From a virus, in the IMG/VR virus record IMGVR_UViG_3300027743_000013, positions 1-46,109 of that record: a stretch of DNA of 46,109 nt; one strand, given 5' to 3'. Below the pieces are notes generated by a model, which made no database searches, was not told where the DNA came from, and saw only the letters and a program-made list of their open reading frames with translations. Positions 9,703-46,109 of the stretch are shown here, piece after piece. Both the position numbers and the translations under genes were made by a program. Position 1 is the first letter of the stretch. Every line of letters starts with the position of its first letter.

Positions 9703-9841
9703 GTGCTTTCAAGTTTCGCACGCGCCGCGCATAGCGTCGGGCATAGCGGTCGATGATTTTCTCCAGCTTTGGATTGCTGTGGTTACGGCTCAAGTCTTTC
9801 AGCAGCTTCCAATCCACTGTCACGAGGGTTTTATCGGTCAT
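9683..9841 (-). CDS. 52-aa basic helical protein
   Basis: The ATG at 9841 lies 11 bp inside the end of the upstream gene and the frame runs for 52 codons to TGA at 9685-9683, overlapping the next gene by 20 bp. The peptide is helical with a strongly basic middle (K-L-E-K-I-I-D-R-Y-A-R-R-Y-A-R-R-V-R-N-L-K). It fills what would otherwise be the only sizeable gap in a fully overlapping cluster, which supports it. No family is recognised; nucleic-acid binding would fit the charge. Confidence 0.65.
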   Translation of the reverse strand: MTDKTLVTVDWKLLKDLSRNHSNPKLEKIIDRYARRYARRVRNLKAHEQARQ

Positions 9842-10247
9842 ACCCGACCTCGTCATCGCCGTCGTATCCGACCTTGCGATTGATCGACTGATCGATGATC
9901 TGATCGAGGCGTTTGGTCATTGCCTCTTCCAGATTTGCTGACGGGCCGCGCTTCATCATGTGGTCAGACGGACGCGGCGTGGGCTTCGGCTTGACCTTCG
10001 GAAACTCAATCAGCGGCAGCTTCTCGGCGGTGGCCTGCTCGATGCCGTCGTTCCACATTTCGGAGACGGCCTCGACCGGCGTGGTCGCCTTTTTCTTCTT
10101 CACCGGCTTGCAACCTAGCGCCTCGGCGATGATGCCGATGCAATGTGCCCGCTCGATCTCCAGGGTCTTACTCTCGGACAATCCAACCGACACCAAATGG
10201 TGTTCCAGTCGTCCCCAGATGGTGGCGGCCATTGTCAACTGATCCAT
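9831..10247 (-). CDS. Small basic/acidic phage protein, unknown function
   Basis: The product is 138 aa from ATG 10247, chosen for the GAGG site six bases upstream; an ATG at 10259 that overlaps the upstream stop (ATGA) would add four residues. Residues 1-45 are helical, 46-55 contain a K-K-K-K patch, 75-95 are Lys/Pro-rich (P-K-V-K-P-K-P-T-P-R-P), and the C-terminus is helical with an acidic tail. I recognise no domain. It sits between two unknown genes of the leftward cluster. Confidence 0.6.
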   Translation of the reverse strand: MDQLTMAATIWGRLEHHLVSVGLSESKTLEIERAHCIGIIAEALGCKPVKKKKATTPVEAVSEMWNDGIEQATAEKLPLIEFPKVKPKPTPRPSDHMMKRGPSANLEEAMTKRLDQIIDQSINRKVGYDGDDEVGYDR

Positions 10248-10255
10248 GGTGGTCC

Positions 10256-10672
10256 TCATGCGTCGTCATCGAGATAGTATGCGCTTGGCGTGTAGATAGC
10301 GCTCATCCAGCGTGGCTGCAGGGTTCTGCGATTAGGGAAGCGGTCCTCGATTTCGGCTTGCGACCAGGGCTTCTCGGTCAGGTGAGCCCGCTGCAGGCGC
10401 AGCGCCTCAAATCGCGACCGGGCCTTGCCGATCGGTTTGTCTTTAGCGAATGCGCCTTCCAGGCCGGTGGCGAACACGGACTGGGCCTTGGGCGCGCGCA
10501 GCTTGTATTCGGCATAGTTGTCCAGCATGTCGAGGTCGATTTCATCGCAGATGAACAATGCTTCGTCGGCGATTTGCTGTGCGTCGAACATGTCCTGCTC
10601 GTGCAACTCGGCGATCCGCGTCAGCGCGGTTTTCATCAACCCAATGATGGCCGCCGTGCGCGGGTCGGTCAT
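10256..10672 (-). CDS. Helical acidic phage protein, unknown function
   Basis: The product is 138 aa. The first 60 residues form an acidic helical region (D-M-F-D-A-Q-Q-I-A-D-E-A-L-F-I-C-D-E-I-D-L-D-M-L-D), the middle is basic, and the C-terminus contains P-W-S-Q-A-E-I-E-D-R-F-P-N-R-R followed by an acidic end. No known family. It is coupled by four-base overlaps on both sides, directly downstream of the alpha-CTD-like gene, so the two are probably expressed in equal amounts and may act together. Confidence 0.65.
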   Translation of the reverse strand: MTDPRTAAIIGLMKTALTRIAELHEQDMFDAQQIADEALFICDEIDLDMLDNYAEYKLRAPKAQSVFATGLEGAFAKDKPIGKARSRFEALRLQRAHLTEKPWSQAEIEDRFPNRRTLQPRWMSAIYTPSAYYLDDDA

Positions 10673-11094
10673 GGGTCTTCTCCAGGGAGGCGCAGCCGGT
10701 AGCCGTGGTCGGCTAGTTGCTCCTCGATCTCATTGAGCGATTTTCGCCCAAAGTTTGGAAAGCAGAGCAGTTCGTTCTTGGTGAATTTGATCACATTCCC
10801 GATCGTTCTGCAGTCCTCGTTGATCAGGCAATTGCGGGTGCGGGGCGATAGTGCGAGGACGTCGATCGAGGTTTCCTCCGGCAGCTTCCGGGCGGCCTTG
10901 CTCATATCGTGGCGGATAATTTTGGCCAGCGTCTCCAGCAAGTCTGGCATTGCCATCGTGATGAACATATTGCCATCGCACGATAAGCCGTTGCCTTTCT
11001 CGCCGCCCCAGATGACGACCAGCACACCGTCGGCTTTGGTTTTCTCGCGCACCATAGCGCACACATCATCGTATTTGCCGGGACCGAATGTCAT
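10669..11094 (-). CDS. Phage protein with RNA polymerase alpha C-terminal-domain-like fold
   Basis: The product is 141 aa. Residues 1-65 form an alpha/beta domain of a type I have seen in prophage proteins (Y-D-D-V-C-x-x-V-R-E-K-T ... G-V-L-V-V-I-W-G-G). Residues 75-136 align without gaps to the bacterial RNA polymerase alpha-CTD. Every main DNA-contact residue of E. coli alpha is kept: Arg265 is Arg85, Asn268 is Asn88, Cys269 is Cys89, Asn294 is Asn114, Gly296 is Gly116, Lys298 is Lys118, Ser299 is Ser119 and Glu302 is Glu122. The N-F-G-R-K-S-L-N-E-I stretch is the alphaproteobacterial version. It may compete with, or substitute for, host alpha-CTD at UP elements and activator contacts. Confidence 0.85.
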   Translation of the reverse strand: MTFGPGKYDDVCAMVREKTKADGVLVVIWGGEKGNGLSCDGNMFITMAMPDLLETLAKIIRHDMSKAARKLPEETSIDVLALSPRTRNCLINEDCRTIGNVIKFTKNELLCFPNFGRKSLNEIEEQLADHGYRLRLPGEDP

Positions 11095-11348
11095 TGTTTG
11101 ATCATCCTCCAGCGCTTGTTTGCCTCGCGCACGTTTTTATCCTTGGCCATCTCGCGCGCCTCGATCGGCGTTGGTTTGCGCATCTGCAGGCCTTCGGTGA
11201 ACACCGACCATTTCCCGCACTTGATGCAGATCGAGACATCGCCAGCGCTGGGCTCGACGCCCTCATCGTTGACGTCGCCCGCCAGATGCACCGGCTGTCT
11301 GCAGTGCGGGCATGTTGCCCCGGTGTAGAAGATGCCGTCGTCGGTCAT
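11091..11348 (-). CDS. Zinc-ribbon-like small protein
   Basis: The product is 85 aa from ATG 11348 (TGATG overlap with the previous stop; a GTG one codon earlier is also possible). Cys13-x2-Cys16 (C-P-H-C-R-Q-P) and Cys41-x2-Cys44 (C-I-K-C-G-K) form two knuckles about 25 residues apart, the layout of a zinc ribbon. The C-terminal 35 residues are a basic helix with E-A-R-E-M-A-K-D-K-N-V-R-E-A-N-K-R-W-R. It lies directly upstream of the alpha-CTD-like gene and overlaps it by four bases. Nucleic-acid or RNA-polymerase binding would fit, but is not shown. Confidence 0.7.
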   Translation of the reverse strand: MTDDGIFYTGATCPHCRQPVHLAGDVNDEGVEPSAGDVSICIKCGKWSVFTEGLQMRKPTPIEAREMAKDKNVREANKRWRMIKQ

Positions 11349-11650
11349 CACCGCCTCTTGCTGTGGCTGCGGCGCATGCTGGAGCAGATGATCTTCAACG
11401 CCGCGTCACGCGAAAGCCCGATATGCTCGTTCAGGCTGTTGGCCCATCGATCGGCCTCGACGTGGCCGGAGAACACCTTGCCGTCGATCGGCGAATAGCC
11501 GGGCTCGTCCAGCACCGCGACACCGAGCTTCCAGACCTCCAGCTTCTGGTCGATCACCGCGAGGAAGGCGTATTGCTTGCCGGAAAATTCGCCTGCGGCT
11601 TTCTGGTCGATGATCGCGGCTTCCAGGCTCATGTTGGTGATGTCGGTCAT
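11348..11650 (-). CDS. Small phage protein, unknown function
   Basis: The product is 100 aa: strands in the first half (K-Q-Y-A-F-L-A-V-I-D, L-E-V-W-K-L-G-V-A-V), a V-E-A-D-R-W-A-N-S-L-N helix and a basic S-R-D-A-A-L-K-I-I end. The mix resembles a small alpha/beta domain that binds a ligand or partner, but no family comes to mind. Its start overlaps the DUF7694-like gene (ATGA) and its stop overlaps the zinc-ribbon gene (TGATG). Confidence 0.65.
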   Translation of the reverse strand: MTDITNMSLEAAIIDQKAAGEFSGKQYAFLAVIDQKLEVWKLGVAVLDEPGYSPIDGKVFSGHVEADRWANSLNEHIGLSRDAALKIICSSMRRSHSKRR

Positions 11651-12039
11651 GTCAGCGTTCCGAGCTTGGCATCACCGACTGCTTCCGCTGGCGGGCGCGG
11701 TATCTCGGCTTTCAGGGGCCGCCACAGGTGCAGGCAGAAGCGGTGATTGTTGACGTATTCGGATTTCGGCGGATGCAATTGCATCACGCACTCATCCTCG
11801 TTCCAAAACTGATCCTTGACCCAGCACATCTCGTCCCAGTTGGGGTTACGGTTTTTGACTGAGACTGAGACGTGTTCAAACTGCACGATGAAATCGCCAG
11901 CGCTCGCCATGATGGTGAGCATCGCACCGCATGGCCCCGTCACCTGAAACAGGCCATAGGGGCCATACGAGCTATCGGAGCCGAGGTGGCTACCTCGCAC
12001 GCGCCCGCGCTCGATTTTGTCGCTGAGCTTGCTACGCAT
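11647..12039 (-). CDS. DUF7694-like phage protein
   Basis: The product is 130 aa from ATG 12039, which overlaps the upstream stop (TGATG). Residues about 55-110 show H-V-S-V-S-x-x-x-R-x-P-x-W-D-E-M-x-W-V-K-D-x-F-W-x-x-D-E and then H-P-P-x-S-x-Y-V-N-x-H-x-x-C-L-H-L-W-R-P. This set of W, H and P positions is what I remember of DUF7694, a family found in phages of many hosts and of unknown function. The conserved His/Trp residues hint at a ligand pocket. Part of the leftward cluster. Confidence 0.65.
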   Translation of the reverse strand: MRSKLSDKIERGRVRGSHLGSDSSYGPYGLFQVTGPCGAMLTIMASAGDFIVQFEHVSVSVKNRNPNWDEMCWVKDQFWNEDECVMQLHPPKSEYVNNHRFCLHLWRPLKAEIPRPPAEAVGDAKLGTLT

Positions 12040-12239
12040 CAATCATCCTTCTTCATCGTCACGATCGTGTAGGCAGCGTTGTGCATTTTCTCGATCAGCA
12101 TCGGCACATGCGCAATGTTGACCGTCATCACCGCGAACGCCTCGCCGTCCGCGCGCTCCAGTTGGAAATGCAGCGCCGTGCATTGCGGGTCGTCGCAGAC
12201 GCCGAGGGTAAAACTGTGTGCAAGCTCGACTTCGCTCAT
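12039..12239 (-). CDS. Small phage protein, unknown function
   Basis: The product is 66 aa: an acidic start, strands (H-S-F-T-L-G-V-C-D-D, T-A-L-H-F-Q-L-E, A-F-A-V-M-T-V-N-I) and a helix (P-M-L-I-E-K-M-H-N-A-A-Y-T-I-V). The layout resembles a tiny single-domain beta-beta-alpha fold. It is joined by overlaps on both sides to genes of the leftward cluster. I cannot name a family or function. Confidence 0.65.
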   Translation of the reverse strand: MSEVELAHSFTLGVCDDPQCTALHFQLERADGEAFAVMTVNIAHVPMLIEKMHNAAYTIVTMKKDD

Positions 12240-12466
12240 GCGTTGCCGACCGTTTGAAAATCATCACCGACGATGCCGTCGAGCGCTTGGCTGACGATCA
12301 GCTTGACCTCTTCCTCCAGCGTGCAGTTCGACAGGATTTCCAAATCGCCTTCGCGGGTGCGCAACAGCAGCACGAAGCCGATGCCTGCGCCGCTGGTGTT
12401 GAGCATCTGGTCGAGCCGCTTGGTCAGCACAGCCAGGGCGTGGTCGCGGGTGTCATTGCTCATCAT
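12236..12466 (-). CDS. Small alpha/beta phage protein, unknown function
   Basis: The product is 76 aa. A helix with A-L-A-V-L-T-K-R-L-D-Q-M is followed by two strands (I-G-F-V-L-L-L-R-T, D-L-E-I-L-S-N) and an acidic C-terminal helix. It overlaps the DUF3846-like gene by 14 bp and is coupled to the next gene by four bases. Similar short proteins are frequent in early operons of phages. Nothing in the sequence indicates an activity. Confidence 0.65.
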   Translation of the reverse strand: MMSNDTRDHALAVLTKRLDQMLNTSGAGIGFVLLLRTREGDLEILSNCTLEEEVKLIVSQALDGIVGDDFQTVGNA

Positions 12467-12836
12467 CGTCGTCGTCTCCGTCGCTGTAGAGCGAACGCAT
12501 GAACGCTTGGTCGCCGGTCAGGATCACCACATCACCGACTAGATAATCATTCCATCCATGGCGCAGCGGGCGACCGTCGGCCTTGAGGCTCTCGTACCAT
12601 TTCTTGGTCGCCACCGGGTTCGCTGGCAATTGCTTACGCTTGCCATCCTCGTCGCAGTAGACCACGCAGGGCGCGCGCGTGTTGTTATCCAAAACTAACT
12701 GATTGAAGCCCGGCACCGCCTCCAGATATCCACCGCCGATGCCAGCTTTCAGTGTCTCCAGATCGGGCTCGCGATCGAGCGGCGTTTTCTTCAGCGTGCC
12801 ATTGGTGCTGATGACGATCATGGTGCCTTGCATCAT
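12453..12836 (-). CDS. DUF3846-like phage protein
   Basis: The product is 127 aa. It has the DUF3846 order of elements: a short strand and linker, L-E-T-L-K-A-G-I-G-G-G-Y-L-E-A-V-P-G (about 27-44), a Y-C-D-E-D-G-K strand-turn, L-P-A-N-P-V-A-T (about 70-78) and L-V-G-D-V-V-I-L-T-G-D (about 98-108). The tail is nearly all Asp. DUF3846 proteins occur in actinobacterial and proteobacterial phages with no known function. The ATG at 12836 overlaps the upstream stop; an internal ATG at 12821 with an AAGG site is an alternative. Confidence 0.75.
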   Translation of the reverse strand: MMQGTMIVISTNGTLKKTPLDREPDLETLKAGIGGGYLEAVPGFNQLVLDNNTRAPCVVYCDEDGKRKQLPANPVATKKWYESLKADGRPLRHGWNDYLVGDVVILTGDQAFMRSLYSDGDDDDDEQ

Positions 12837-13060
12837 CTTCGCTTTCTGGGTTTGCGTTTGGCGATGTTGTGCGCAGCAAGCATCCGCAGCCCGGCGCGGG
12901 TCAGCTTCACCTCGTGATTTTTGCCGATCCGCAACAAGCCGTCACCGACTAATTCCATCACAGCTTGTGATGCATGCCCGCTCAGCCAATCAAGCGGACG
13001 CCCGCCATCAATCTGGCTCAACAAGCGCAGCGTGCGTTCTGGGGAAGCAGGCATTGCCAT
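12833..13060 (-). CDS. Small winged-helix-like protein
   Basis: The product is 76 aa from the ATG at 13060; an open frame reaches 13156 but that part overlaps the upstream gene. Residues about 5-65 show helices and a hairpin typical of a winged helix (R-T-L-R-L-L-S-Q-I ... A-S-Q-A-V-M-E-L-V-G-D-G-L-L-R-I-G-K-N-H-E-V-K-L-T-R-A-G), and the C-terminus is very basic (A-K-R-K-P-R-K-R-R). DNA binding is likely. It is separated from the upstream HTH gene by 28 bp, the largest gap inside the cluster. Confidence 0.6.
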   Translation of the reverse strand: MAMPASPERTLRLLSQIDGGRPLDWLSGHASQAVMELVGDGLLRIGKNHEVKLTRAGLRMLAAHNIAKRKPRKRR

Positions 13061-13088
13061 TCCCAAACCGGCAACTGTTGATCTCAGT

Positions 13089-13367
13089 TCACCGGGAGTT
13101 TTTATGCATCCTCTGCCAGACGCGCTGATAGCCGAGTGCGCGGCCAGCGGCTTCAAGTGTGGGGTTTTGCGGGCGCTGCGTTTTGCCGAAGAACCACGCT
13201 CGCATGCACGCCACTGACGGCCCGCCCTCCTCGGTGATTTGTTGGAGGTCTTTGTGCTTTACGCGGTGGCCAAAATGATCCTCGACCACGGTACGCAATT
13301 GATCGATCGCCGGGTCTTTGGTTTTGAAAACATACGCGCCATAGAGGCTGCCATTCCGCTTCGCCAT
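13089..13367 (-). CDS. HTH-like regulatory protein
   Basis: The product is 92 aa from ATG 13367, which follows a GTG and overlaps the upstream stop. Residues about 38-80 (K-D-L-Q-Q-I-T-E-E-G-G-P-S-V-A-C-M-R-A-W-F-F-G-K-T-Q-R-P-Q-N-P-T-L-E-A-A-G-R-A-L-G) look like a lambda-repressor-type helix-turn-helix in which the second helix contains C-M-R-A-W and the third T-L-E-A-A-G-R-A-L-G. The first 30 residues hold an aromatic strand. It is the second gene of the leftward cluster and may regulate the promoter region at 13706-13938. Confidence 0.7.
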   Translation of the reverse strand: MAKRNGSLYGAYVFKTKDPAIDQLRTVVEDHFGHRVKHKDLQQITEEGGPSVACMRAWFFGKTQRPQNPTLEAAGRALGYQRVWQRMHKNSR

Positions 13368-13705
13368 CACACCACCTTGTAGTGGGTGCTGGAGCCCTTG
13401 CCACCGGCCTTGCGGATCACACCGCGTGCGATCGCACCTTTAAGAAAATGATTGGACGATGCGGGATTGAGCCCCTGGCCTTTGGCGATCACTCTCGCCT
13501 CCTTGCCGGTGAATGCAGCGACACCCTTGAGCCCGACGATAAACCGATCGACGTGGCTGCCGCCGCTCGCCGCCTTGATGCCGTTGCTGCTGACGACGGC
13601 ATTGACCACCGGCTCAACGGTCGGTGCGCCCCTGGCGATGTTCATCAGCGCCCGCAGCGCCTCGCTCAGTTTTTTATCATCAACGAAAAATTCTACGCGG
13701 AACAT
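13367..13705 (-). CDS. First gene of leftward accessory cluster; possible HTH protein
   Basis: The product is 112 aa with a GGGAGG Shine-Dalgarno eight bases before ATG 13705. The N-terminal 30 residues form a strand-helix unit (R-V-E-F-F-V-D-D-K-K-L-S-E-A-L-R-A-L), and residues 60-110 look like a winged-helix fold (A-R-V-I-A-K-G-Q-G-L-N-P-A-S-S-N-H-F-L-K-G-A-I-A-R-G-V-I-R-K-A-G) ending in a strand. As promoter-proximal gene it would be the most strongly made product of the cluster. A DNA-binding or partner-binding role is possible; the family is not recognised. Confidence 0.7.
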   Translation of the reverse strand: MFRVEFFVDDKKLSEALRALMNIARGAPTVEPVVNAVVSSNGIKAASGGSHVDRFIVGLKGVAAFTGKEARVIAKGQGLNPASSNHFLKGAIARGVIRKAGGKGSSTHYKVV

Positions 13706-13938
13706 ACTGGTCGCCTCCCTATGATTTCGGAAAAAAATAAAACACTAAAGAAAACCTTTAGTCGACAAAAAGTTCAATTCTCATTTTGCGCATGCGGCCA
13801 TGCATCACACGCTGGCGCGATTGCACAATCGTTTGGCAGCAGCGCGCAAGACGGTTTTTGCAGCATCTGCCAGCATGGTTTGCTCATAAACGATAACGGT
13901 TATATAATCGATAACGGATTTGAAATTGGAATGGGCGC
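13706..13938. promoter_or_regulatory. Divergent control region between leftward cluster and RHH regulator
   Basis: The 233-bp gap holds a 17-bp element AACACTAAAGAAAACCT (13741-13757) that reads ACTAAAG-N5-CTTTAGT as a dyad and recurs at 24309-24325. It also holds an inverted repeat GCATG-CGGC-CATGC (13790-13803), a palindrome CGATTG-CA-CAATCG (13818-13831) and the rightward promoter at 13880-13917. Both the leftward cluster and the RHH gene must be started here. Confidence 0.65.
13880..13917 (+). promoter_or_regulatory. Promoter with two CGATAACGG operators, driving the RHH gene
   Basis: A TTGCTC (-35, 13880-13885) is followed after 17 bp by TATAAT (-10, 13903-13908). CGATAACGG occurs at 13891-13899, inside the spacer, and at 13909-13917, just downstream of the -10, an 18-bp step. 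A protein on these sites would block polymerase directly, so autoregulation by the RHH product is likely. Confidence 0.65.
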
Positions 13939-14139
13939 ATGGACATTGTGATATCGAAAAGTAATAGTAAGCGTATGGGAAGACCACCGAAACACCGCGT
14001 GCCAACAATGATCCGTCTGGATCGCTCAGCGATCGCGCGGATCGACAAAAATCTGCGCGGGCGCGAGAAGCGCGTCGACCTGATCCGCGCTGCGGTCGAC
14101 CGGGAACTCGCCCGGCGCGAAAAAAGCAAATTGCGGTAA
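13939..14139 (+). CDS. Ribbon-helix-helix (Arc/CopG-type) regulator
   Basis: The product is 66 aa. After a basic arm (K-R-M-G-R-P-P-K-H-R) comes a strand P-T-M-I-R-L-D and two helices (R-S-A-I-A-R-I-D-K-N-L and R-V-D-L-I-R-A-A-V-D-R-E-L-A-R-R), the standard ribbon-helix-helix layout; R-x-D-L-I-R-x-A-V is the usual second helix. It should bind DNA as a dimer through the strand, most likely at the paired CGATAACGG sites in its own promoter, and perhaps at the same site in 8568-8576. It stands between the early leftward cluster and the late genes, so it may control the switch between them. Confidence 0.85.
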   Translation: MDIVISKSNSKRMGRPPKHRVPTMIRLDRSAIARIDKNLRGREKRVDLIRAAVDRELARREKSKLR

Positions 14140-24295: not shown

Positions 24296-24308
24296 CGCAA
24301 ATCTCCCA

Positions 24309-45600: not shown

Positions 45601-46061
45601 GGGTACAGCCTCCTCAGAAACCGGCGAGCGAGCAGCAGCCAAAGCGCGGTCGAGACGAGCGTCGACGCCAGCACGAGGAAGAAGGCGCTGCCGTTGTCCC
45701 TCGGCGTTGGCGGCTGCGGCACCGGCATGATGTTGAGCGGCTTGATCTCGCGATCGGCAGCACGCGCCTCGGTGATCCACGACCATTGCGGATCGTCCAA
45801 CGTCTCCTGCTGCGGCGGCAGTGCAACCGGCACCACCACCGGCAACATTGGCCGCGCCTGTACCTTCGCCGGCGGCTTGGGCTGCGGTGTCTTCGCCGCT
45901 GCTCGCGCCTCGCTCATCGAGCGAGCCCAGCATTGCCCGTTGATGCCGACGCTCCAGTACAGGTGCGATGCGTACATCGCGCGCGCCTCGGCCTTGCTCA
46001 TGCACTTTGCGGCCGCAACTTGCGGCAGCAGCACGAGCATCGCGGCGAGGAGCAGGCGCAT
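45594..46061 (-). CDS. Secreted or membrane protein with signal peptide (spans circle junction)
   Basis: The product is 155 aa from ATG 46061 (a GTG one codon earlier overlaps the upstream stop; on the circle that stop is at 69-71). The first 19 residues form a hydrophobic signal sequence (L-L-A-A-M-L-V-L-L) ending in A-A-A, then K-C; there is no lipobox. A domain with K-C-M-S-K-A-E-A-R ... L-Y-W-S-V-G ... C-W resembles small periplasmic proteins of Bradyrhizobium-type genomes. Pro-rich linkers and a membrane helix near 126-146 follow. It may act in envelope contact or lysis. Confidence 0.7.
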   Translation of the reverse strand: MRLLLAAMLVLLPQVAAAKCMSKAEARAMYASHLYWSVGINGQCWARSMSEARAAAKTPQPKPPAKVQARPMLPVVVPVALPPQQETLDDPQWSWITEARAADREIKPLNIMPVPQPPTPRDNGSAFFLVLASTLVSTALWLLLARRFLRRLYPW

Positions 46062-46109
46062 CACTCATCGACCTTCTCGACCAGCGGCGCGGTCGGCGGC
46101 ACGAACGCC
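45993..46109. repeat. Terminal direct repeat, right copy (assembly overlap)
   Basis: Exact duplicate of 1-117. It contains the start of the secreted-protein gene and the last codons of the 116-aa coiled-coil gene. Confidence 0.95.

Follow-up and report, generated by a model that had tools for sequence, protein, structure and literature searches.

Phages modify, cleave or bind the alpha subunit of the host RNA polymerase. The Alt and ModA proteins of phage T4, for example, modify residue R265 of alpha (PMC2988021). This residue, together with N268, binds the DNA backbone and the minor groove in E. coli (PMC11434276). The alpha-CTD module that carries these residues is also encoded by phages. 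It occurs outside a full RpoA, with R265 kept, in gp23 of Ruegeria phage V16 and in Microbacterium phages (gp24 of phage Atraxi), where its partners differ from that of the protein described here. According to the printed annotation alone, ORF 40 of Erythrobacter phage vB_EliS-L02 has an alpha-CTD as well (PMC9127768).

The window, that is the whole stretch of 46,109 nucleotides of viral DNA analysed here, encodes an alpha-CTD joined to a small phage domain. The fusion gene (positions 10669 to 11094, minus strand, for which the first-pass annotation had given no strand) has an ATG start and specifies 141 amino acids. A GGAGG sequence 11 nt upstream of the start codon (11106 to 11110, minus strand) is its likely ribosome-binding site. 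The gene overlaps each of its neighbours by exactly 4 nt, as is the case at most junctions in its operon. All three segments of the protein are encoded on the minus strand. The N-domain, of the small GPGKYDD phage family, comprises residues 1-66 (10897 to 11094). The linker, residues 67-73 (10876 to 10896), is the segment between the matches of the two domains, and the alpha-CTD is formed by residues 74-136 (10687 to 10875). An internal start at M64, which would yield a free alpha-CTD, was considered and rejected, the preceding sequence having no convincing ribosome site. An identical copy of the gene is found on a second IMG/VR contig. The two contigs share 16 kb of DNA with 100% identity, so that the copy probably comes from the same virus and is not independent evidence. 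The N-domain and the alpha-CTD were modelled separately, and MAFFT misaligned mixed fragments of the two domains. The N-domain part of the full-length model, for which no relatives were available, is not reliable.

The alpha-CTD half can be identified with little ambiguity. Residues 74-128 match Pfam family PF03118 (RNA_pol_A_CTD) with 61.4 bits and an E-value of 6.7e-17, above the curated cutoff of 23.8 bits. Residues 76-135 align to solved alpha-CTDs without a gap, the best match being Caulobacter 9zum (E 6.3e-12). The AlphaFold2 model of this part has a pLDDT of about 97. Upon superimposing it with Foldseek over about 60 columns, the rmsd was found to be 0.5 Å for 8y5t, 0.7 Å for 9dvt, 0.8 Å for 1z3e and 0.9 Å for 1lb2. 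The first-pass annotation had described a gap-free alpha-CTD match from the letters of the sequence. Both the profile search and the structural comparison that it had suggested bear this out, and the model shows no departure from the alpha-CTD fold. The eight DNA-contact residues it had named are also all present: R85, N88, C89, N114, G116, K118, S119 and E122 correspond to R265, N268, C269, N294, G296, K298, S299 and E302 of E. coli alpha, respectively. As judged from sequence and model, residues 74-136 are a true alpha-CTD with an intact predicted DNA-contact surface.

Two further features had been absent from that list. I91 takes the place of K271 of E. coli alpha, and V79 and A81 stand where alpha has acidic residues, at positions 259 and 261. 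Both of the latter positions are acidic in all 26 RpoA sequences compared. We take these two acidic residues to be the patch that contacts region 4 of sigma. With this patch lost, the domain would grip DNA without giving the usual help to sigma. Besides missing the acidic residues found in RpoA at 259 and 261, the fusion protein has no alpha N-terminal domain, only the GPGKYDD phage domain being situated upstream of the alpha-CTD. RpoA models match it in their C-terminal part alone, with scores far below the cutoff. Without the alpha N-terminal domain, the fusion protein cannot assemble as the alpha subunit of RNA polymerase.

The region contacting CRP (E. coli positions 285 and 288) retains T105 and E108, while position 287 is N. 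A free alpha-CTD might serve as a decoy, binding host activators or the enzymes that attack the alpha-CTD and drawing them off the real polymerase. Activators converge on this domain (PMC11434276) and phage enzymes act on it (PMC2988021), and the preservation of T105 and E108 would agree with such a role. However, the N at position 287 argues against it, and the joining of the module to the N-domain would be left without a reason. A decoy is thus considered improbable.

The N-domain is predicted to be a helix-strand-strand-helix structure (pLDDT 85, pTM 0.62). This is in keeping with the first-pass annotation, in which the alpha-CTD was fused to a phage alpha/beta domain; the domain is found as a stand-alone protein in many phages, the terminase relatives of this phage among them. 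No entry for the family was found in Pfam or PHROGs, and a fold search of the PDB and of a viral library gave no match at an E-value of 0.001 or better. The N-domain is present on at least 154 viral contigs (search with an alignment of three sequences), a retrieval that used the GPGKYDD motif and missed members without it. It is about 50% identical to the stand-alone proteins; over its whole length the identity to most of the 58 other aligned members is 45-55%, and the motifs GPGKYDD and GxxGxG are common to the family. The members are stand-alone proteins, typically of 60-80 amino acids, unlike the fusion protein with its 141 amino acids and its alpha-CTD. When 80 N-domain loci were read, 77 were found to encode 59-105 amino acids and two ran off the contig end; an alpha-CTD was present only at the 141-amino-acid locus of the identical contig. 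No independent second fusion of the N-domain with an alpha-CTD was found among the viral loci read. In two terminase relatives of this phage the N-domain is a separate short protein, and the alpha-CTD is absent from all 22 terminase-relative records, several of which are fragments. The N-domain is thus a widespread phage protein without a name, and within the data covered only this phage has it fused to an alpha-CTD.

A small protein with a GFVLL..SN motif, encoded in the same operon (12236 to 12466, minus strand), resembles the protein encoded beside the N-domain in two terminase relatives (L158:1698-1982; L159:222-506). Its pattern of a hairpin plus a helix looks, by eye, like that of the N-domain itself.

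At two N-domain positions that are 98% conserved elsewhere in the family, neither of them within the search motif, the fused protein differs (F37 to L37 and Q40 to D40). The fused N-domain also has the lowest nearest-relative identity among the 59 aligned sequences. Taken together, these sequence differences fit either a changed role or a relaxed constraint. Relaxed constraint would be expected if the fusion were a neutral accident, in which the stop between adjacent genes was lost or the two parts were joined by chance, no new function being gained. The occurrence of the fusion in one phage only is also consistent with an accident. However, the full set of alpha-CTD contacts has been kept at only about 50% identity to RpoA, and the reading frame and the operon junctions are intact, as unconstrained sequence would not remain. 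An accident therefore appears very improbable.

A search with an alpha-CTD alignment found the module on 53 viral contigs, about 50 of them besides this phage. It is situated at either end of the protein. Its partners include coiled tails, HTH-like domains, a sigma-region-4 domain and others, and the GPGKYDD N-domain is in none of the other phage alpha-CTD proteins. R265, which lies outside the main search motif PNFGRK, is kept in all 40 of the phage alpha-CTDs that could be aligned; the conservation of N294, G296 and K298 among the phage copies partly reflects the pattern used for the search. Three unannotated records of human fecal origin in the phage collection also matched but were set aside, since they are RpoA of the usual bacterial kind, complete in two records and truncated by the record end in the third.

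Two of the phage proteins may be described individually. In gp23 of Ruegeria phage V16 (L003 / L017), which is annotated as a pyrophosphatase, the alpha-CTD is located towards the N-terminus. The protein encoded at L049:913-1374, and the similar one at L050:4776-5240, has a sigma-70 region 4 domain (29.6 bits, above the cutoff) and, after it, an end that resembles an alpha-CTD (18.8 bits, below the cutoff of 23.8). It would unite in one chain both of the polymerase parts that touch neighbouring promoter elements.

The first-pass annotation had taken the alpha-CTD to be a copy of that of the host. A search of 299 bacterial genomes, all from one phylum, gave RpoA as the top matches, with an identity of about 50% and 52% at best. 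The nearest phage alpha-CTD (L010) is 53% identical, or 47% identical over more columns. A tree of 72 columns places all RpoA sequences and five non-RpoA rows on one branch with a support of 93/86. The alpha-CTD of the fusion protein lies outside this branch, joined to Ruegeria V16 (93/78) and to L010, in a tree that is weak because it has few columns and long branches. An origin as a fresh copy of host RpoA is not supported by this weak tree, which puts the domain with the phage copies. Since RpoA and L010 are about equally distant and the tree, though weak, joins the phage copies, acquisition from another phage is no less likely, and the claim of a host copy does not stand as worded. The simplest reading of the sequences is that the module was taken from a phage pool and is ultimately derived from RpoA. 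More than one alpha-CTD match was observed in nine of the 299 bacterial genomes (G098, G102, G118, G120, G134, G174, G182, G194 and G235), G118 having five such matches. In G098 the top match is an open frame of 248 amino acids, shorter than RpoA.

The fusion gene belongs to an operon of 12 small genes (9831 to 13705, minus strand), in which nine of the 11 junctions have a 4-nt overlap. Its upstream neighbour (11091 to 11351, minus strand) encodes an 86-amino-acid, zinc-ribbon-like protein with two CxxC pairs, whose Pfam matches are all sub-threshold. This protein had been suggested as a partner recruited by the alpha-CTD, a suggestion that finds no support in the data. A zinc-ribbon protein that by eye is much alike also occurs repeatedly close to N-domain genes of phages that lack the alpha-CTD fusion.

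Just upstream of the operon is an AT-rich stretch (13720 to 13762) with the inverted repeat ACTAAAG-AAAAC-CTTTAGT (13744-13762), a candidate control site. The genome has a GC content of 61.6% and only five stretches with at least 18 AT per 22 bp, two of which are at the head of the fusion operon, the intergenic stretch with the inverted repeat being one of them. The 17-mer AACACTAAAGAAAACCT has exactly two copies in the genome (13741-13757 and 24308-24324), both in the + orientation and each before an operon. The copy at 24308 lies 22 bp ahead of the gene in front of the terminase, and the sister contig (phage L063) has a partly conserved copy of it in the same place before its terminase genes. 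Candidate binders of the AT-rich element are the fusion protein itself, the product of the small gene at 13939-14139 and a host factor. A promoter-like sequence, TTGCTC and TATAAT separated by 17 nt (13880-13908), points rightward opposite the operon head, within the ACGATAACGG/TCGATAACGG repeats.

The 17-mer resembles promoters of the T3 type. A T7-type phage polymerase, which this likeness had raised as a candidate, has no gene among the larger proteins scanned; a dedicated search gave no signal in its control genomes and carries no weight. As there is no T7-type polymerase among the genes scanned, the phage probably uses the polymerase of its host. The genome is probably complete, having a direct terminal repeat of 117 bp (1-117 and 45993-46109). 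It carries genes for RecT, a YqaJ nuclease, a primase, a DnaB-like ATPase, the large terminase, the major head protein, an endolysin and a tyrosine integrase. With this gene content, including the integrase, the phage is probably temperate.

The presence of RecT, YqaJ, primase and helicase genes in the same genome is also consistent with a role outside transcription, in which the alpha-CTD would be a mere helix-hairpin-helix DNA module tethering the N-domain for replication, recombination or packaging. The loss of the sigma-contact residues, with the DNA contacts retained, would suit a tether, as would the very different partners of the module in other phages, an annotated pyrophosphatase among them. 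Nevertheless, RpoA uses this same surface at the AT tracts of promoters, and some of the other phage copies adjoin HTH-like or sigma-like domains. A simple tether is accordingly regarded as unlikely.

The preferred reading, held with moderate confidence on the basis of sequence and models, is that the fusion protein is a phage-made, stand-alone DNA-binding modulator of transcription. The alpha-CTD would place the protein on the minor groove of AT-rich DNA, either at host UP elements or at AT-rich control regions of the phage. At UP-dependent promoters it would then act as a competitor of the host alpha-CTD. Alternatively, the N-domain and its binding partner would be delivered to promoters. 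Judging only by its small two-strand fold, the N-domain may form a homodimer or associate with a partner. Redirection or blocking of promoters, which the first-pass annotation had proposed, is possible. The HTH-like and sigma-region-4-like domains of other phage alpha-CTD proteins argue for a modulator, as do the repeated AT-rich elements before the fusion operon and the terminase genes. Further points in favour are the close superposition on solved alpha-CTDs, the eight retained DNA-contact residues, the constancy of R265 among the phage copies, the lost acidic patch, the probable use of the host polymerase and the attack of T4 Alt and ModA on R265. The replacement of K271 by I91 on the DNA face argues against it, as do the lack of a solved-structure match for the N-domain and the occurrence of the fusion in a single phage, and both AT-rich elements may belong to a different regulator.

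A broader proposal, put forward only tentatively, is that phages repeatedly make use of a detachable alpha-CTD. Paired with different small domains, it would give rise to promoter-occupying proteins that out-compete or replace the alpha-CTD of the polymerase at AT-rich DNA. In the present protein the contact with sigma would have been dropped and the grip on DNA kept. The fusion also gives a way into a small protein family that is very common in phages, its N-domain having here been given a partner of the DNA-binding type.

The fusion protein has the same fold as the bacterial alpha-CTDs (Caulobacter 9zum, E. coli 1lb2 and 3n97), lying within 0.5-0.9 Å of several solved domains, and keeps their DNA-contact residues. 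It differs from bacterial alpha in the missing N-terminal domain, in the changes at 259/261 and K271, and in the unrelated phage domain attached to it. T4 Alt and ModA and phiKMV Rac modify or cleave alpha (PMC2988021, PMC7552054), whereas the fusion protein would imitate a part of alpha. Common to these enzymes and to the role proposed here is the control of host transcription by the phage via alpha. A free alpha-CTD module borne by a phage, with its DNA contacts kept and its sigma contact lost, would, if this reading is true, be another route to the control of host promoters.
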